From: Pseudo-nitzschia pungens
Lineage: Eukaryota; Bacillariophyta; Bacillariophyceae; Bacillariales; Bacillariaceae
Direction: 5' to 3'
NCBI GenBank assembly: GCA_037355855.1
Contig: CM074762.1
Coordinates: forward strand, 3,100,001-3,164,000
DNA length: 64,000 nt
Positions 6,934 through 45,024 of the stretch are shown here, piece by piece. The position numbers and the translations under genes were made by a program. The notes beneath the pieces were generated by a model. The model searched no databases. It saw only the letters and a list, made by a program, of their open reading frames with translations, and was not told where the DNA came from. Position 1 is the first letter of the stretch, and the number at the start of each line of letters is the position of its first letter.

Positions 6934-8484
6934 TTAGTCGACACGATGGACCCGCAGCCTTCTCCTCCGCGTCGATTTGGCCTTCGCTACCTTGGTCGAT
7001 TTCGTTGCTTTTTCTGACTTGAGCCCGTCAAAACTTGCTTTCGAAACCTTGAGTGATTTGTCGGTGGTGGCCTCCGATTTGCTGCTCTTGTAGGACTTCG
7101 TTGACAATCCCTTCATGGCCTTGGCCACCTTCCCCGTCTTCTCCACCTTGGATCGGAGGAACGCTCGATTTCCGCCGTCCTCGGTTTCCAGCTTCATTGC
7201 CGTCAGGGGCATCGACATGGACATATCGACCAGATCCGACATTCTGAATTCCATCATGGTCCTCATCAGTTCGGATGATCCCATGTCCATCGACATCGAC
7301 ATTGACAAGTCCATAGACATCGCAATGGGTGCAATTGTCGGAGGAACAATGGGAGCTTCGGTTGGAGGAACAACGGGTGCTTCGGTTGGAGGAACAACGG
7401 GAGCTTCTGTTGGTGGAACAACGGGAGCTTCTGTTGGAGGAACAACGGGAACTTCTGTTGGAGGAACAACGGGAGCTTTTGTTGGAGGAACAACAGGGGC
7501 TTCTGTTGGAGGAACAACGGGAGCTTCGGTTGGAGGAACGACGGGAGCTTCTGTTGGAGGAACTACAGGAGCTTCGGTTGGAGGAACGACGGGAGCTTCG
7601 GTTGGAGGAACAACGGGAGCTTCGGTTGGAGGAACAACGGGAGCTTCGGTTGGAGGAACAACGGGAGCTTCGGTTGGTGGAACAACGGGAGCTTCGGTTG
7701 GTGGAACAACGGGAGCTTCTGTTGGAGGAACGACGGGGGCTTCTGTTGGAGGAACAACGGGAGCTTCGGTTGGAGGAACAACGGGAGCTGCCGTTGGTTC
7801 GTCCGTTGTTACAGCTGCTGAGGGACAGAATTCGGGAGAGGGCGGTTCCAAACTTACCTGGAGCACAAGGAGAGCGTCGCAAAACATGAGATACACAATC
7901 TTACAATCTTCCTTTTGGCTTGGACAAGTCGATCACACGAGAAAACTTACGAACTCAGTCCATCCCGCACTTTGGCCGTCAACAAGTGTCGGGTATTCGT
8001 CGCAAATGTTCGTGTAGGCAACGGCGAAGAAATTCACAATGGGTTGCCCTGCAGCGTTGCGTGCGAAAATATTCAATTGAATCACTTTTGGAATCTCTGT
8101 GTTGTCATCTTCCTCAACAATTGAAGCATATTCGAATACGTCTCCATCCACAAAAGTACCAGTGATGTTTTGTTGCGACAACACCTCAAAACGTTGTCCT
8201 AGTTCCAGAACATCTACATACTGGACCTCAACGGGGACCAAGTCTGTTATGTTCTGATTCTCGTCGCCAAAAGGACTGATCTGACAAAATGTTGCGGAAA
8301 TCGCTCCGTTTCGTTCAACATTTACTGGTGGACACGTCAAGGAGAAATCGAACAGGAAACTATATTTGGAAGGAGAGCACGCACAGAGGTCTTGTGCTGT
8401 GGCTCGTCCCAACCACAAGGAGGCGGCCACAAGCAAAAGCATCACCGAAGATGTGTGGGTTCGTTGTTGTCGCGATCTCGCCAT
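6934..8484 (-). CDS. Secreted silaffin-like protein with PVVPPTEA repeats (two exons)
   Basis: Exon 1 (8484 to about 7951) starts with a clear signal peptide (MLLLVAASLWLGRATAQ) and a Cys-containing globular part (LCACSPSKYSFLFDF, CPPVNVERNG, TNICDEYPTL) of about 150 residues. A 93-bp GT-AG intron (7950-7858) keeps frame. Exon 2 encodes about 20 tandem octapeptides of the form APVVPPTE. It then has MDLSMSMSMDMG and VDMSMSMPLT, and a basic tail dense in Lys separated by two residues (GKVAKAMKGLSTKSYKSSKS, KATKSTKVAKAKS), ending RRRRLRVHRVD. The signal peptide, SMSM and KxxK tracts are features of diatom extracellular and biosilica-associated proteins; in silaffins, Lys/Ser clusters are modified to polyamines and phosphates. 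Inference: a cell-wall or silica-matrix protein. I do not recognise the N-terminal domain. Confidence 0.82.
7327..7800 (-). repeat. Coding minisatellite (24-bp unit) in the silaffin-like gene
   Basis: About 20 head-to-tail copies of a 24-bp unit encoding APVVPPTE, differing mostly at silent positions (GGAGGAACAACG and close variants on the plus strand). The regularity also opens long spurious frames on the plus strand. Confidence 0.9.
7858..7950 (-). other. Intron of the silaffin-like gene
   Basis: The donor reads TTC|GTAAGTTTTCTCG and the acceptor TTGTGCTCCAG|GTAAGTTTGG on the coding strand. The junction is phase 0 and joins ...GWTEF to VSLEPPSPEF. The eight bases GTAAGTTT occur both at the donor and immediately after the acceptor, forming a direct repeat across the intron. 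Confidence 0.8.
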
Positions 8485-21264: not shown

Positions 21265-23755
21265 TGTGACTGATCCTGGTCTTTCGGGAATGCCAAGAGG
21301 CAACAACACGATGATCCCGGTCTTTCAGGAGTGTATGGAAAGAAATACAAGATGGTCCCAGTCTTTTGTGAGTGTAGGGAACCAAATACATAATGATCCC
21401 GGTCTTTCTTGAGTGCCATCTTTCGGGAATGCCGAGAGACAACAACACAATGATCCCGGTCTTTCAGGAGTGTACGGAAAGAAATACAATATGATCCTGG
21501 TCTTTCGGGAATGCAGAGAAACAATGGCACGATGATCCTGATCTTTCATAAGCGCCGCCAGGGAACCAAATAAATGATGATCCCAGTCTTTTGTGAGTGC
21601 AGGGAACCAAATACATGATGATCCTGGTGTTTTGGGAATGCAGAGAGACAACAACACGATGATCCCGGTCTTTCGGGAATGCAGAAAACCAAATGCATGA
21701 TGATCCTGGTCTTTCGGGAATGATCCCGGTCTTTCGGGAATGCCGGTGCACAAATAGTACATGATGATCCCGGTCTTTCGGGAATGCTGAGAAACAATGA
21801 CACGATGGTCCCGGTCTTTTGGGAATGCCGGTAAACAAATTCATGATGATAATGGTCTTTCGGGAATGCAGGGAACCAAATACATGATGATCCCCGTCTT
21901 TTGTGAGTGCCTGTACACAAATATTTGATGATCCCGGTCTTTCGGGAATGCAGGGAACCAAATACATGATGATCCTAGTCTTTCGGGAATGTAGGGAACC
22001 AAATGCATGATGATCCTAGTCTTTCGGGAATGCAGAAAAACAATAACACGATGATCCCGGTCTTTCGTGAGTGGAGAGAAACAATTACACGATGATCCCG
22101 GTCTTTCAGGAGTGTACGGAAACAAATACAAGATGATCCCGGTTTTTCCAGAGAGACAACAACATGATGATCCCAGTCTTTCGGGAATTCAGGGAACCAA
22201 ATGCACGATGATCCTGGTCTTTCGTGAGTGCAGGAAACCAAATGCATGATGATTCTGGTCTTTCCGGAATGCAGGGAACCAAATACATGATAATCCTGGT
22301 CTTTCTTGAGTTCCAGTACACAAATACATGATGATCCCGGTCGTTCGGGAATGCCAAGAGGCAACAGCACGATGATCCCGGTCTTTTGGGAATGCAGAGA
22401 AACAACGACAAGATGATCCCGGTCTTTCGGGAATGAACCCGATCTTTTGGGAATGCCGAGAGACAAGAACAGGATGATCCCGGTCTTTTTGGGAATGCAG
22501 GGAACCAAATACATGATGATCCCGGTCTTTCCGGCATGCAGAGAAACAATGGCACGATAATCCCGGTCTTTCAGGAATGCCAAGAGACAACAACACAATG
22601 ATCCCGGTCTTTTGGGAATGCAGTGAACCGAATACATGATGATCCCAGTCTTTCGGGAATGAAGGGAACCAAATACATGATCATCCCGGTCTTTCGGGAG
22701 TGCAGAGAAACAATTACACGATGATCCCGGTATTTTGCAAGCGCCAACAGGGAACCATATAAATGATGATCCCAGTCTTCTGTGAGTGCAAAGAATCAAC
22801 TACATGATGATCCCATTCTTTTGTGAAGGAGCTGCAATTGATCGACGTTCCTGCTGCTGCTGCTGCTGCTGCTGCTGCAATTGATCGACGTTCCTGCTAC
22901 TGCAAGTGATAGACGACACAAAATCCTGATGATCCCAGTTTTTGCAAGGAATCAAAAACACGATTCTCCCGGTCTTTTGTGAATGCAGGTGAACAAATAC
23001 ATTGTGATCCCGGTCTGTCGGTCTTCGGTCTTATACATGATGATCCCTGTCTTTTGTGAATGCAGTGAATCAAAGCCACAATGATCATGGTCTTTCGTGA
23101 AAGCAGTGAAAGAACGACACGATGCCAGCTACCACAAACATTATGATCCCGGTCTTTGGTGTAAGTGCAGGGAAAAAAACATTTTTTTTTCTCTCTGTTT
23201 TCCTCGTGGCCAAGGATCATCGTATATTTCTTCCTCTACACTCACAAAAGATAAGGAACATAGTGATGTTCTTTCTTTGCATTCACCATGATCCCGGTCT
23301 TTCGGGACACGATGATCCCGGTCTTTTGGGAATGCAGGGAAGCAACACAAAAACAGGATGCTTCTGGTCTTTCGGGAATGCAGAGAAACAATGACACGAT
23401 GATCCTGGTGTTTCGGGAATGAAGAGAATCAAATACATGATTATCCCGGTCTTTCGGGAAAGAAGAGAAATAACTACACAATGATCCTGGTCTTTTGGGA
23501 GTGTACGGAAACAAATACATGATGATCCCAGTCTTTTCATGATGATTCCGGTCCTTTGTGAATGTAGGGAAACAACGACACGATGATCCCGGTCTTTCGG
23601 GAATGTAGAGAAACAATGGCATGATGATCCCGGTCTTTCGGGAATGCAATTACACAGTGATCTAGGTGTTTTGGGAATGCAGAGAAACAACAAAACAGTG
23701 ATCTCGGTCTTTCGGGAATGCAAAGAAACAACGACTCAATGATCCTGGTCCTTCC
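21265..23755 (-). repeat. 41-bp satellite array, left arm
   Basis: Roughly sixty diverged copies (estimated from length) of a 41-bp unit whose core on the plus strand is GATGATCCCGGTCTTTCGGG followed by AATGC and a variable tail (AGAGAAACAAC, AGGGAACCAAATAC, CGGTACACAAATAC). Spacing between neighbouring cores is 41 bp where I counted (21617, 21658, 21699). Read on the minus strand, the unit is open in all three frames, which produces overlapping frames full of ERPGSS and RKTGII. These look like by-products of the repeat, not genes. Confidence 0.85.
22851..22912. repeat. CTG tract with AATTGATCGACGTTC spacer
   Basis: CTG repeats at 22851-22878, then GCAATTGATCGACGTTCCTG and a shorter tract. 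Related copies lie at 23757-23825, and in the opposite orientation at 23967-24015 (CAG tract with AACGTCAATCAATTGCAG), marking the mirror symmetry of the element. Confidence 0.8.
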
Positions 23756-24039
23756 TCCTGCTGCTGCAATCAATCAACGTTTCTGCTGCTGCTGCAATTG
23801 ATCTACGTTCCTGCTGCTGCTGCAAAGGATTAACATTCCTACTGGAAGGAAACAAATGGTACAGGATGCTCCCTATCTTATTTAACTAGGCATACCTTGT
23901 ACCTTTGCTCAAACCTGTCCTTCTGGTGCTCGCAACTCTGCCAGCAAGCCTGCAAGAACGTCGATCAATTGCAGCAGCAGCAGCAGCAGCAACAGGAACG
24001 TCAATCAATTGCAGCTCCTTCACAAAAGAATGGGAGGAT

Positions 24040-24780
24040 CATCGTGTCGATGTTTCCACAAGGGACCGGGATCATCATGTATTTGTGTACCGGCACTCAC
24101 AAAAGACTGGGATCATCATGTACTTAGTTCCCTGCCGGCGCTCACGAAAGACCAGGATCATGATGCCATTGTTTCTCTGTATTCCCAAAAGACCATCGTC
24201 ATGCATTTGGTTCCCTGCATTCCCAAAAGACCGGGAGCATCTTGTCGTTGTTTCCCTACATTCACAAAAGACCGGGATCATCATGTCTGTATTCCCGAAA
24301 GACCAGGATCATCATGCATTTGGTTCCCTGTATTCCCGATTCATCGTGTAATTGTTTCTCTGCATTCCCAAAAGACCAGGATCATCGTGTTGTTGTCTCT
24401 CGGCATTCCCGAAAGACCGGGATCATCATGTACTATTTGTGTACCGGCATTACCGAAAGACCAGGATCATCGTGTTGTTGTCTCTCGGCATTCCCGAAAG
24501 ACCGGGATCATCATGTACTATTTGTGTACCGGCATTACCGAAAGACCAGGATCATCGTGTTGTTGTCTCTCGGCATTCCCGAAAGACCGGGATCATCATG
24601 TACTATTTGTGTACCGGCATTCCCGAAAGACCAGGACCAGCATGTACTTCGTTCCCTGCCGGCGCCCACAAAAGACCGGGATCATCATGTATTTGGTTCC
24701 CTGCACTCCTGAATGAACAGGATCATCATGCATTTGGTTCTCTCCACTCTCGAAAGACTGGGATCATGATGCAAAAAAAC
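24040..24780 (+). repeat. 41-bp satellite array, right arm (opposite orientation)
   Basis: About seventeen units (by length) of the same satellite, now with CCCGAAAGACCGGGATCATC on the plus strand. A higher-order block containing TACTATTTGTGTACCGGCAT recurs at about 24430, 24514 and 24600. Open frames on the plus strand (for example 24009-24716) mirror those of the left arm. Confidence 0.85.
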
Positions 24781-27401: not shown

Positions 27402-30400
27402 TCAGAGTTCGGAACTCGCCCGTCGTCGGCCGTGCGTGTCGTTCATCGCGAACCAAAGCAAGGGAAGAGCCACCACCGCCGCTGCTGTTGCTAGAACTAC
27501 GGGGATCCACACCCGACGGGACGCAGCGGGAAGGTCCTCGTGGCTGTTGCTGCGTGGTAGTGTTTGTTTTGGATCGTCGCTGCTTGGTTTGTTGCCCTCA
27601 GGAGTGAGGTCGGGTGTTTGTGATTGTGCTCCGGCAGATTTGATTTCGGATTTTGCGTCTCCATTGTCTTTACAAATACTATTGCTTCTCTCCATAACAG
27701 CCATACCCGTATCGATTTCACCGAGTTCGATTGGCGCTTCGCCACAATGCGAAACGACTTTCTCTGTCCTCGGTTCCCTGTTTTCCTGGTTTTCTTCCTC
27801 CTCCACTTTTCCCTTTTGCGCAATCTCGTGGTCTGACATTTCATCGGCTTGGCGCGGTTCCGGTGGCGTGTCGGGCGAAGAGTTGGAGATGAACTCCGCA
27901 GATTCGTCATCATTGTTATCATCGTTGTGTTCCCCAGATTCGTGATGTTCTGGATTCTCTATGTTGTCGTCCGCACAGCTTTCCTTTGTTTCAGACTCCA
28001 CTCTGGATTCTTGCACCTCGGGCAAAAAGTTGGAAATGAACTCGGTCATTTCGTCGTCGTCGTCTTCGTCGTCGTGTTTTGCGGTTTCATTCTCTTCCTT
28101 AGTGTCGTCCTGTTGTGGTCGCTCTACTTCGTCTTCTCTGCTTTTCATGAACTCAGACTCGACATTGGGCTCTTTGGCTCCTTGCGCTTCAGGCAAGAAG
28201 TTAGAAATGAACTCAGCTAATTCCTCGTCGTCATTGTCATTGCCTTTACTGGTTTGTGTCTTCTTGGCTTCGCGCTGTTCTGGTTGTTCCTTCTCGTTGT
28301 CGCCGCACTCCTTGGACTCGGGCTCCACATTTGGTTCTTGTCCTTCAGGCAAGAAATTGGAAATAAATTCGGCCAATTCGTCCTCATCGTCATTGTCCTT
28401 GCTGTCATCCGTTTGGTTCATGGTTTCAGTCTCATCCTTTGCTTTGTGCTGTTCTGGTTTCTCGGTGTCGTAGTTGCTGCTGTCCTTGGTTGCGGACTCC
28501 GTACTTGGTTCGTCCGCTTCGGGTAAGAAGTTCGAAATGAACTCGGCTAGTTCCTCGTCGTCATTGTCATTGTTGCTGTCACGTTTCTTGGTTTGAGCGT
28601 CTTCCTTCGTCTTGAGCTCTTTTGGTTCCTCTCTGTCCTCCTCACTACTCTTCTTTGTCTCAGACTTTACACTGGGTTCTTGTGCGTCGGGCAAAAAGTT
28701 GGAAATGAATTCGGTCATTTCACCGTCGTCGTCGTTGTCATCATCCTTTTCTGTTCTACCTTTGTGATCTGACTTGCCCTTGTTGGATTCTTGCGATGGT
28801 GGTAGCTCGTCGGGCAAAAAATTGGATATGAACTCGGTCAATTCATCATCGACCTCTTCTTCCTGGACTGTGTTGTTTGCTTGTTCTGCTGTTTCCTCCT
28901 CAGATTCTTGCCGTTCTGGTTCCGGTTCTTCCTCCGGCAAAAAGTTGGAAATGAACTCGGTCAATTCTTCGTCATCCTCCTCCTTCTTAATGGTGTTGTT
29001 GGCTTGTTCTGTTCTTTCCTCCTTGGATTCTTGCTGTTCTGGTTCCGGTTCTTCCTCGGGCAAAAAATTGGAAATGAACTCGGTCAATTCTTCGTCATCC
29101 TTCTCCTTCTTAATGGTGTTGTTGGCTTGTTCTGTTCTTTCCTCCTTGGATTCTTGCTGTTCTGGTTCCGGTTCTTCCTCGGGCAAAAAGTTGGAAATGA
29201 ACTCGGTCAATTCTTCGTCATCCTCCTCCTTCTTAATGGTGTTGTTGGCTTGTTTTGTTCTTTCCTCCTTGGATTCTTGCTGTTCTGGTTCCGGTTCTTC
29301 CTCGGGCAAAAAATTGGAAATGAACTCGGTCAATTCTTCGTCATCCTTCTCCTTCTTAATGGTGTTGTTGGCTTGTTTTGTTCTTTCCTCCTTGGATTCT
29401 TGCTGTTCTGGTTCCGGTTCTTCCTCGGGCAAAAAGTTGGAAATGAACTCGGTCAATTCTTCGTCATCCTCCTCCTTCTTAATGGTGTTGTTGACTTGTT
29501 CTGTTGGTTCCTCCTCAGATTCCTGATGTTCTGGTTCCGGTTCTTCCTCGGGCAAAAAATTGGAAATGAATTCGGCCAATTCGTCATCGTCGTCTTGGTT
29601 GCTCGACTTTCGAGCCGAGGCATCTCTCTGAGGGATGCTGTCTTCGCGAGGCTCCCCGCCGTCACTGCTCACGGGGCTCTTCTCCTCCTTGTTGCTGTTG
29701 TTGTTGCTGCTGCTGGGGGTGTTCAAAGTGCCCGTGGCCACGACCGCAACCGCCGCCGTTTGCGACGCCCGTTCCCGTCGCCGAGTCATAATGGCCACGT
29801 CCTTGTTCCAGGACGCCTCGTCGTAGTGCCCGAGGTACCGGAGGGCCGATCGCTGGTTCGGGGTCAGGTCGTTCCAGGGCTGGAAAAAGGCGGCAAGATC
29901 CTGGGAGTCTTCGTTCCACAGATCTTCCGTGTAGCCGACCTCGACCGCGTTGACCTTTACCAGGGGTGGCAGATCCTTCCACTCCAGGTCGGAATCCAGG
30001 ATCCAATTGTAGGGATGCGGATGCGATGGAATCGAATTCGATTTGGGAGACCCTTGCAAGTGGTTCGATTGCTCATCCTTTCCTGCCTGGGAGTTGTTTC
30101 GTTGTGGTTGTGGTTGCTGCTGCTTCTTGGATGACGACGACGGCCGGCTCTTCGCAGCCGATGCAGCATTGGTGCTGATGCCCGCCATGGAAGACGGCAG
30201 TCCACCCGACGTCAAAAAGTCCAGAATGTCCTCTCGGGGCAACTCCATGATTTCGTTGAGACGATCCTGCAGGATCTCTGCCTTTTGGTGGAGGATTCGT
30301 TCCTCGATTTCCTTGGCGGTGTGCGGGGGCGTTGGGGTTTGACGCGGAGAGCTGCTGCCGCTGCCGCTGCTATGAATGTGGATTCCGGTGGTCTCGTCGG

Positions 30401-30734
30401 CAGAACCCGGACCCGGAGACGCGTCGTGATCCACGACGGCATCGTGGGCGTTGTATTCGAACTCGACATCGTCTTCGTCGTTTTCGACGGTGTCGTCGTC
30501 AAAGGAGCAATCGTCGACGGACGTCGGAACCAACAAATCCACTAGCTTGGCCTGGACCAGTTCTCGAATCTTCGACATCATCGAGTTGTCGTGGATTTCC
30601 GACTTGGAAAACCACAGGTTGGGCTTTTCGCTGGGATCCACCCGCGGAATTAGCATCACCGAGTTTTTTTCCTCGCAAAAGGACACCGAGCCCGCATCGG
30701 AGGTCGATGCTCGAATCGCTGGAGCCGCCACCAT
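27402..30734 (-). CDS. Tail-anchored acidic protein with 13 EFISN modules
   Basis: 1110 residues from the ATG at 30734; the longer frame lacks an upstream ATG, and TTCTTTCTCAG just before it looks like a splice acceptor of a 5'-UTR intron. N-terminal third: a helical part with LQDRLNEIMELPREDILDFL, then two copies of a short helical module found in many diatom proteins (LPPLVKVNAVEVGYTEDLWN, LTPNQRSALRYLGHYDEASWN). Residues about 390-1000 hold 13 modules of 40-60 residues, each opening with DDEELTEFISNFLP (last copy EFISNSSP). The first six are near-identical (EEEPEPEQQESKEE...NNTIKKE); the rest have diverged. The C-terminus has one membrane helix, VWIPVVLATAAAVVALPLLWFAM, and a basic tail. 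Inference: a membrane-tethered scaffold presenting many copies of one short binding motif to the cytosol. Confidence 0.85.
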   Translation of the reverse strand: MVAAPAIRASTSDAGSVSFCEEKNSVMLIPRVDPSEKPNLWFSKSEIHDNSMMSKIRELVQAKLVDLLVPTSVDDCSFDDDTVENDEDDVEFEYNAHDAVVDHDASPGPGSADETTGIHIHSSGSGSSSPRQTPTPPHTAKEIEERILHQKAEILQDRLNEIMELPREDILDFLTSGGLPSSMAGISTNAASAAKSRPSSSSKKQQQPQPQRNNSQAGKDEQSNHLQGSPKSNSIPSHPHPYNWILDSDLEWKDLPPLVKVNAVEVGYTEDLWNEDSQDLAAFFQPWNDLTPNQRSALRYLGHYDEASWNKDVAIMTRRRERASQTAAVAVVATGTLNTPSSSNNNSNKEEKSPVSSDGGEPREDSIPQRDASARKSSNQDDDDELAEFISNFLPEEEPEPEHQESEEEPTEQVNNTIKKEEDDEELTEFISNFLPEEEPEPEQQESKEERTKQANNTIKKEKDDEELTEFISNFLPEEEPEPEQQESKEERTKQANNTIKKEEDDEELTEFISNFLPEEEPEPEQQESKEERTEQANNTIKKEKDDEELTEFISNFLPEEEPEPEQQESKEERTEQANNTIKKEEDDEELTEFISNFLPEEEPEPERQESEEETAEQANNTVQEEEVDDELTEFISNFLPDELPPSQESNKGKSDHKGRTEKDDDNDDDGEMTEFISNFLPDAQEPSVKSETKKSSEEDREEPKELKTKEDAQTKKRDSNNDNDDEELAEFISNFLPEADEPSTESATKDSSNYDTEKPEQHKAKDETETMNQTDDSKDNDDEDELAEFISNFLPEGQEPNVEPESKECGDNEKEQPEQREAKKTQTSKGNDNDDEELAEFISNFLPEAQGAKEPNVESEFMKSREDEVERPQQDDTKEENETAKHDDEDDDDEMTEFISNFLPEVQESRVESETKESCADDNIENPEHHESGEHNDDNNDDESAEFISNSSPDTPPEPRQADEMSDHEIAQKGKVEEEENQENREPRTEKVVSHCGEAPIELGEIDTGMAVMERSNSICKDNGDAKSEIKSAGAQSQTPDLTPEGNKPSSDDPKQTLPRSNSHEDLPAASRRVWIPVVLATAAAVVALPLLWFAMNDTHGRRRASSEL

Positions 30735-32107
30735 TCCTGAGAAAGAACGATGGATCAATAGAAAAAAGAATACTCACACCAAAAAAAGAGAAACGATCTC
30801 TCGGAATCAATCAATCAATCAATTCAGGAATGATCTATCGTTGGGAGTTGCTTGCTGCTAATGGCTCTTTACTGTCGTTGTAATGCGCGAAGAACACGGC
30901 AATGTCTGTTGTTTTAGAAAGAATGAAACTACGGTACGGTAAACCTTACCGTGCGTGTTTGATGTGTCGGATGAAGTGACCCAATGGTGATATTCAACAG
31001 TAGAAAGTGACATCCAGAATAGAAGAATTAAGATTACTGCATCACCTCACCACTTCGTCACGTCTAGATTTACCGTACAAGTTGAAAGTACGATTACGGC
31101 ACAAACAGACATCACACAACATCATCTAGGTAAGGTTAACCTTACTCACTACTGACTGAAGGAACATACGATCAACGTCAATGTCTACGTATCGGGCTTA
31201 CGTGCCTCGAACAACCCAAAATAGTGCACCAGAATCTCTTTATTTTAAGTTGCGGTAAGTTACTATGGAATACGACGTCGACGACGACGACGACGACTCT
31301 TGCTCCATCCGCCTCAAATTGTTGACATACCAAAGCCCTTTTTTCCCATCGAAAAAGACTTCAATATGCCCCGTAAGTGATGGAGCCAAAAAATGAAAAC
31401 AAAATCCGCGCCGAAGGTCCAAATTCGGGTAGTTCTTCAGCGGGAGATGACTCCAAGACCAGTACGAAGTAAAAGAATGAATGAATGAATCAATATCGAG
31501 TTGTGACCTTTGGCTGAAGGTCATTGCAAGAGTAAGTTACTAGTAACCGTTATTAGGAAGTTTACATGTACAATAAGTACCGTAATGCTTAGAAAACGAC
31601 TGGAATGTGTTCTTCTTCTGTCGCCATCGTTTTCTCTAGTACGTCCCACATCGATATGTCTACTACTACTAGTTACTCGTACCTTACCGGTATGGGATCG
31701 CATTGCCATTCAAAAATAGAAACAATGCAGCAATGTACTACGAAGTACTTTTGTTTTAAATAATAGAAAATAGGCGGCACAATCCTCGTATCATCTTTCC
31801 AAAAAGATATAGTTCGGCATGGTGTGTATACGTGTAGAATAGCTACTAGCTCTATAGATATCTTTTTATCTGAAGTATAAAATAGTTTAGCATCACCGTA
31901 ACAAGCAACAAGAATCCAAAAGTCACTTCTCTCGACAGCGAGTCGATTGCAGGAGGTTCCACAGATGCAAGTGCTGGTTCCCGATTGCAGTTGGTGCCCA
32001 CACCAATCATTGCTCGCAACGCGGAGCGTAGGTTTTGTCGGAAACCGGTCGAACACTATCTCTACGTCCACGTCCACGTCCCTAGTGACAATTCGCGAAA
32101 CACTCCT
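30735..32107. other. Intergenic between two minus-strand genes
   Basis: Holds the upstream region of the EFISN gene and the 3' flank of sideroflexin. A minus-strand frame with an ATG (31524-31240, 94 residues) ends in a Ser run from GAC/GTC repeats and is not recognisable. Two GGTTAACCTTAC-type words lie near 31130. Confidence 0.4.
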
Positions 32108-43515: not shown

Positions 43516-45024
43516 ATGAACGCAGTGACCGGAGAGCTCAGCGAGCAAAGACGCTTCTTTTTACCGGATAGAAAATTGACGGATTTCCCTGAAAGTCGGG
43601 ATGCGATGTCCCAAGTTCTTGGCAAGCAGCAACGTAAACGCAGTTATTCCTGTCTCACACAAGACACGGACGAGGTGCACTTTCCCCTGAAAAGAGTGAA
43701 CAAAGTGCCCGACACCTCGCCGAAGCAGTGCTTGTTGAATGGTTTGCATTCTCTTCTGAATGAAGACATTCAAATGTTCGGTGATTATCAAACGGTGGAC
43801 CGTCTCTTGCAAGCCCAGTCGGACTTCAAGCAAAAAAAGATTCCGTGTCATGTCGACGTCGCTTATCACCACACTCGCAGTGAAAATCTCAAGACCATCG
43901 AGACCAACGGTCTGCTGTCGCGTTATGAGCGTGCTCGGGACTTGCCGGGTGTCGCTGCCGTCGAAAATGGGATAGTATACGGTGACGGGATCTACTGTTC
44001 GGATTATCCCCTATCGAATTTCGATCCAAAATTTGGAGACACTACTATCATATTAGTTCGAATGAAGGGGAAAGTAGGTAGACACCGTTCGCAAAAAGCA
44101 TTGTGCAATTCTCTAATACCCAGCAGAGATATTTGTGTCCTACAAAGTTGCAATCAATGCTTTCCACTAGTTCACTTTCCGTTTGAATGCGTTACAGGGG
44201 ATTTCCTCGACATTTTGTCGAAATTCCAAGAAAACTTACAAAAACTCCTTGACACTTTATTCAATGGAGGAACATCTACTCCGGTGAAAAGCGACTGGAA
44301 AACACGTTTTAGATGGAGGGACCGAATTCTCAAAGTGAAAATGTGCCGGAGCAAACATTTCTCATCTGATTTTCCCACCAAAAGGACATCGGCCGCACTT
44401 TCGTATTTAGCAGACGAGCACAGAATATCCCCCATAGAACGGTTTGGAATCAACCACAGACCTAGCCTGACGTCAACGATGCTGAAGCAAGGCTGCCAAA
44501 TATGCTCAAAATCACTCTTTCGGGGAGGCAAGGTAGTTCAGATCCAATGCAACGGTCACTGCGTCCATAAAGCGTGTCTCCTATCGAGAATGCCCTCGGG
44601 CAGGATGATCGTGCTACGCGATCCGAGCCCGTGCGCCGGTTTCGAACAGAAGGATGGCATTGACATTGGAACCATTGTCATCTGCTATGATTTCGATTGC
44701 AGTTGCCAGCGAGATTACCATCCAAATCCGGGAGTTTTGGTGGCATCCACCATCCACACGGCATACCTACCCGATACGGTCGAGGGCAGAGACTTGCTCA
44801 AACGGCTACTGTATGCATTTTCTACGGGCTGTACCTTCCAGGTGGGAACGAGCCCGATCACCGGTCAGCCAAACTCGATCGTGTGGGCCTCGATCCCCCA
44901 CAAAACCAATAGACAAAAAGCAGGTCCGAATGGCTATCCCGATCCATGCTATTTCAACGAATGCAATAGGGCGCTCGATCGATTGGCAGTTCCACCTGCC
45001 GAATCCCTCGCATGCCCGATCTAG
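43516..45024 (+). CDS. PARP-like / RING / Deltex C-terminal (DTC) fusion E3 ligase
   Basis: 502 residues in one exon. Residues about 113-240 are an ADP-ribosyltransferase (PARP-like) domain. AYHHTRSENLKTIETNGLLS supplies the NAD-binding His, VYGDGIYCSDYPLSNF the Tyr, and DICVLQSCNQCFPLVHFPF matches the final strand. The third triad residue is not Glu, as in mono-ADP-ribosylating or inactive PARPs. Residues about 326-360 are a degenerate RING (CQICSKSLFRGGKVVQIQCN, GHCVHKACL). Residues about 380-495 are the Deltex C-terminal domain: HPNPG, TAYLPDTVEGRDLLKRLLYA, FQVGTSPITGQPNSIVWASI, PHKT and GYPDPCYFNECN. Deltex RING-DTC proteins ubiquitylate substrates, bind ADP-ribose or NAD and can modify ubiquitin itself. 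Finding the ART in the same chain is unusual. There is no signal peptide, so it is probably nuclear or cytosolic. Confidence 0.93.
   Translation: MNAVTGELSEQRRFFLPDRKLTDFPESRDAMSQVLGKQQRKRSYSCLTQDTDEVHFPLKRVNKVPDTSPKQCLLNGLHSLLNEDIQMFGDYQTVDRLLQAQSDFKQKKIPCHVDVAYHHTRSENLKTIETNGLLSRYERARDLPGVAAVENGIVYGDGIYCSDYPLSNFDPKFGDTTIILVRMKGKVGRHRSQKALCNSLIPSRDICVLQSCNQCFPLVHFPFECVTGDFLDILSKFQENLQKLLDTLFNGGTSTPVKSDWKTRFRWRDRILKVKMCRSKHFSSDFPTKRTSAALSYLADEHRISPIERFGINHRPSLTSTMLKQGCQICSKSLFRGGKVVQIQCNGHCVHKACLLSRMPSGRMIVLRDPSPCAGFEQKDGIDIGTIVICYDFDCSCQRDYHPNPGVLVASTIHTAYLPDTVEGRDLLKRLLYAFSTGCTFQVGTSPITGQPNSIVWASIPHKTNRQKAGPNGYPDPCYFNECNRALDRLAVPPAESLACPI

Follow-up and report, generated by a model that had tools for sequence, protein, structure and literature searches.

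In vertebrates, PARP9-DTX3L and PARP14-DTX3L bring an ART-fold protein together with a Deltex ligase that carries a RING and a Deltex C-terminal (DTC) domain, and the two partners act together. His582 and Glu608 of DTX2 are described as conserved in DTX proteins and needed to ubiquitylate ADP-ribose, and His582 is reported to be important for binding as well (PMC7615817). In animals, writer and ligase are separate proteins, and the way in which ADP-ribosylation is linked to ubiquitylation is an open question. PARP and ubiquitin-system domains have been described earlier in one chain, in Dictyostelium DDB0232928 (U-box, macro and PARP domains) and in clade 6A PARPs with UBCc (PMC2964712).

Here we analyse a gene of the diatom Pseudo-nitzschia pungens for which the original prediction, made from the DNA alone, was a single-chain fusion of a PARP-like ART domain with a RING and a Deltex domain. 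The gene (hereafter the query) occupies positions 43516..45024 of the window, i.e., of the whole stretch of 64,000 nucleotides under analysis, which corresponds to C5:3100001-3164000 of a 66.9-Mb genome in 28 contigs.

Results

The query frame is uninterrupted in the DNA over 502 codons, in agreement with the single exon that had been proposed. For comparison, 60 windows of 64 kb simulated with matching local dinucleotide composition contain no ATG frame longer than 334 aa. The positions of its domains and key residues are given in Table 1. Macro, KH and WWE domains are absent from the Pfam matches of the query. The predicted structure has a pTM of 0.50, and the model therefore does not fix the placing of the domains relative to each other.

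Table 1. Coordinates of the query gene, its domains and selected residues (window positions), and of the second gene on the same contig
Feature	Position	Strand	Remarks
Whole reading frame, 502 aa	43516..45024	+	DNA uninterrupted; 509-codon open frame in assembly
N-terminal tail, residues 1-63	43516..43704	+	pLDDT <50; low confidence, probably disordered
ART (PARP-like) domain, residues about 69-248	43720..44259	+	
His118, first ART triad position	43867..43869	+	Invariant in 27/27 aligned ART rows
Tyr160 (GDGIY), second ART triad position	43993..43995	+	Invariant in 27/27 aligned ART rows
Asp205, at the place of the PARP catalytic Glu	44128..44130	+	Sequence alignment, not superposed coordinates
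RING remnant, residues 327-354	44494..44577	+	Zinc site 1 kept, second site broken
DTC domain, residues 359-488	44590..44979	+	
Pro461, replacing DTX2 His582	44896..44898	+	Alignment
Ala486, replacing DTX2 Glu608	44971..44973	+	Alignment
Second ART-RING-DTC gene	C5:3450265-3451494		About 306 kb from the query, same contig

ART motifs were found in 25 of 31 homologues; in 17 of these, a RING region and then a DTC domain come after the ART. The predicted combination of ART and Deltex domains in one chain is thus borne out, and since this domain order recurs in homologues from several sources, we rejected two separate genes or a fusion (joining) artefact as its origin. A further eight homologues have an ART without a Pfam DTC domain (some are fragments), and six have a DTC domain without an ART, one of which, P0001, is a fragment that begins inside the ART. 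Where a source is named, the homologues come from Amphora coffeiformis, Chaetoceros tenuissimus and an organism labelled Psemu1, which we take to be Pseudo-nitzschia. The best examples of intact ART-RING-DTC members are P0009, P0010 and P0011, and the predicted model of P0010 superposes on the RING-DTC part of DTX2 over 205 residues. The same database also includes other Deltex chains, such as P0031, a macro-RING-DTC protein without an ART. Inspection of the homologues further revealed a RING with three DTC stretches in P0002, two DTC stretches in P0006, and one kind of N-terminal segment (e.g., YPLDGRWEMSW...FEMFEYPCEI) ahead of the ART in P0004, P0024, P0025, P0027 and P0029. When viral contigs were scanned once, with a single peptide pattern, 13 matches to the pattern turned up and none was confirmed; this does not exclude viral relatives.

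The genome itself contains three DTC genes (four matches): the query, a second gene on C5 and one on C4. The RING of the second C5 gene is complete; the two DTC positions listed in Table 1 are Pro and Glu in this gene, and its third ART position is Gly; an open stretch upstream of it (796-1410 in L006:796-2995) may represent its first exon. The C4 gene (L007:2500-3903) encodes a DTC-RING-DTC protein without an ART that resembles P0006. Genome searches with the query ART and with the ART-rich P0028 returned only the two C5 genes as ART genes among the best candidates scored.

Several repeats are found elsewhere in the window. A large minisatellite with units of about 41 bp extends over 21280-24771 (blocks 21280-22827 and 23307-24771), and the long frames within it are probably not genes. 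An acidic frame of 1118 aa (27402-30758, minus strand) contains a 123-bp tandem repeat at 28810-29596 (93% matches) that encodes EFISNFLPEEEPEPE-type units, and 19 copies of a 24-bp repeat at 7340-7797 encode a mucin-like PPTEAPVV stretch on the minus strand.

A fold search with the predicted structure identifies a PARP-type ART fold in the query, so the original prediction, which would have failed without a PARP-fold match for residues 113-240, survives this comparison. Among the best 50 matches listed, the ART fold is closest to the PARP10/12/13/14/15 group. Against the Pfam PARP profile (PF00644), the query scores 15.5 bits (E 0.012), under the gathering score of 26.7, and it is therefore classed as a PARP-like ART and not as a Pfam PARP member. 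This holds for the family wherever a score was shown: all scores lie below the cut-off, with a best E of 0.002 among 16 family ART segments, 10 of which match at E 1. A different gene of the same genome, on C12 (C12:1934712-1935284, L012), passes the Pfam PARP cut-off with an E of 6.9e-15; its triad, judged by eye, is His, Tyr and Ile, the pattern seen in mono-ARTs.

A profile built from the ART alone also matches DarT1, an ssDNA thymidine ADP-ribosyltransferase (8baq), with an E of 1.9e-4, but the likeness is limited to a short segment of 33 positions from the first His onward. DarT is absent from the best 50 fold-search matches of the query, where PARPs are listed instead. A DarT-like rather than PARP-like ART was rejected, as PARPs follow the Deltex rows among the best 50 matches of both predicted models (query and P0010).

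In the sequence alignment, the third triad position of the query is Asp205; the residue is thus not Glu, as had been anticipated, and the query lacks the catalytic Glu for polymer formation. Within the family this position is variable, with Glu in 8, Asp in 6 and other residues in 12 of the 26 rows with data (P0029 has none and was left out of the count). Since neither acid is present in those 12 rows, the ART could be an inactive binder of NAD or ADP-ribose. Taken to its limit, this would mean a catalytically dead ART that acts as a reader or scaffold and sets ADP-ribosylated or NAD-bound targets beside the RING-DTC, with no member of the family writing ADP-ribose. We consider this doubtful. 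A position other than Glu in 18 of 26 rows (Asp included) is in its favour, as is the best ART match by Foldseek (rank 9 among the matches listed), which is PARP13 (2x5y), a protein whose ART is inactive. A pure scaffold would not need the His and Tyr residues that are invariant in all aligned rows, Glu is retained in eight rows, and PARP10 is an active mono-ART without this residue. The vertebrate partners of DTX3L are described in both ways: PARP9 as ART-inactive, as a scaffold would be, and PARP14 as an active mono-ART that lacks the Glu (PMC13224862).

All eight RING ligands are present in 18 of the 21 members with this region (20 alignment rows and P0001), and three depart from this, namely the query, P0001 and P0008, the last of which lacks ligand 1. 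Following the ligand order of cross-brace RING domains, C327, C330, H351 and C354 of the query constitute the first zinc site. The last CxxC (ligands 7 and 8) is absent, the Cys preceding GH is shifted one residue out of register, and the second zinc site is broken. The RING that had been read from CQICSK...GHCVHKACL consequently fails for this copy. P0001 likewise has no last CxxC and has also lost ligands 3 and 4, while P0003, the closest row to the query in the ART tree (94/84), has a full RING.

About 18 residues are absent from the query at a single place when compared with P0003, as a mis-join could produce, and an unseen intron or an assembly error might in principle conceal the last zinc ligands of a RING that is complete in the mRNA. 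This is extremely improbable, and a hidden exon was rejected, because only nine bases, all in open frame, lie between KACL and MPSGRM, too few to accommodate an exon, and because P0001, on a separate JGI contig, has the identical junction HKACLQSRMPSG.

The DTC domain is present in the query and, among the matches listed in the fold search, is nearest to those of DTX3L, DTX1 and DTX2. The full Deltex domain proposed for this protein stands as a domain, but its His/Glu pair is replaced by Pro461 and Ala486. Of the 18 family rows that could be aligned here, 9 retain both residues (counted by eye), so the loss is not peculiar to the query; this count leaves out 9 of 27 rows without an alignable DTC end (P0003, P0022-P0025, P0027-P0030). 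The DTC domain of the query might still bind a ligand.

The lost RING ligands and DTC catalytic residues raise the question of whether the query is a decaying gene on its way to a pseudogene, with no present function. Its end branch in the ART tree, 0.96 against 0.47 for the nearest row, and the modest codon-position signal (GC of 0.507/0.423/0.531) would fit such a gene. Nevertheless, we regard this as unlikely: the frame is intact throughout, the ART fold and its His and Tyr are retained, and P0001, which is 81% identical across 64% of the query length, has the same losses, so that this form must have existed long enough to diverge.

Discussion

With moderate confidence, we identify the query as a diverged member of a diatom ART-RING-DTC family that has intact members, itself ligase-dead and either NAD-binding or a mono-ART. 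We infer these and the following activities from the architecture, the predicted folds and the residue losses. In the intact members, the ART would move a single ADP-ribose from NAD onto a target, perhaps the protein itself, the RING would recruit E2~ubiquitin, and the DTC domain would hold the ADP-ribose and activate its 3'-hydroxyl to accept ubiquitin. One chain would then write a hybrid ADP-ribosyl-ubiquitin mark for which animals need separate PARP and Deltex proteins; nearby lysines would be an alternative target of ubiquitylation by the RING-DTC. In the query, the ubiquitin half of this scheme would have decayed with the loss of one zinc site and of the DTC His/Glu pair. Given these losses, the query is most likely an NAD binder and not a ubiquitin ligase, an activity that its sequence makes improbable; it may still perform mono-ADP-ribosylation, and a role in modulating its intact relatives or its partners is conceivable. 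The predicted union of NAD use and ubiquitin transfer in a single chain is therefore unlikely for the query and plausible for its intact relatives.

The expression of Deltex-family ligases is reported to rise in four diatom species when they reproduce sexually (PMC12618581), which offers a biological setting for the ART-RING-DTC family, although the passage in question is silent on the presence of an ART. We tentatively suggest that diatoms have single-chain enzymes whose ART adds mono-ADP-ribose and whose RING-DTC then ubiquitylates that same ADP-ribose, that these enzymes arose without the animal PARP9/DTX3L partnership, that the query is a ligase-dead regulatory offshoot, and that the family may include the sex-induced Deltex genes. 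A single chain with both functions would determine which ADP-ribose receives ubiquitin, and it would provide a compact in vitro system, with the query as a natural loss-of-ligase control beside the intact members.

From two diatom genomes, it was stated in 2010 that diatoms do not appear to have PARPs (PMC2964712). The ART-RING-DTC family and the Pfam PARP match on C12 indicate that PARP-type ART folds are present in diatoms. We found no description of an ART-RING-DTC chain in the accessible passages of the open-licence literature, which is not proof of its absence in print.

Among the known systems, the Dictyostelium protein DDB0232928 and the clade 6A PARPs contain a U-box or an E2-like domain, not a RING-DTC, and the relevant section of the source names no Deltex domain (PMC2964712). 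The RING-DTC parts of human DTX1, DTX2 and DTX3L resemble the diatom proteins in DTC fold and sequence, but the human chains have no ART. Human DTX proteins are also described as having no linchpin Arg behind their final CxxC (PMC7615817), whereas 13 of 19 CxxC-bearing family members have an Arg there (by eye); the query differs from the human proteins in that it lacks the CxxC altogether, together with the His582/Glu608 pair. In PARP9-DTX3L, finally, separate chains are joined by KH domains and the macrodomains reside on PARP9 (PMC13224862), whereas the query combines its ART and Deltex domains in one chain.
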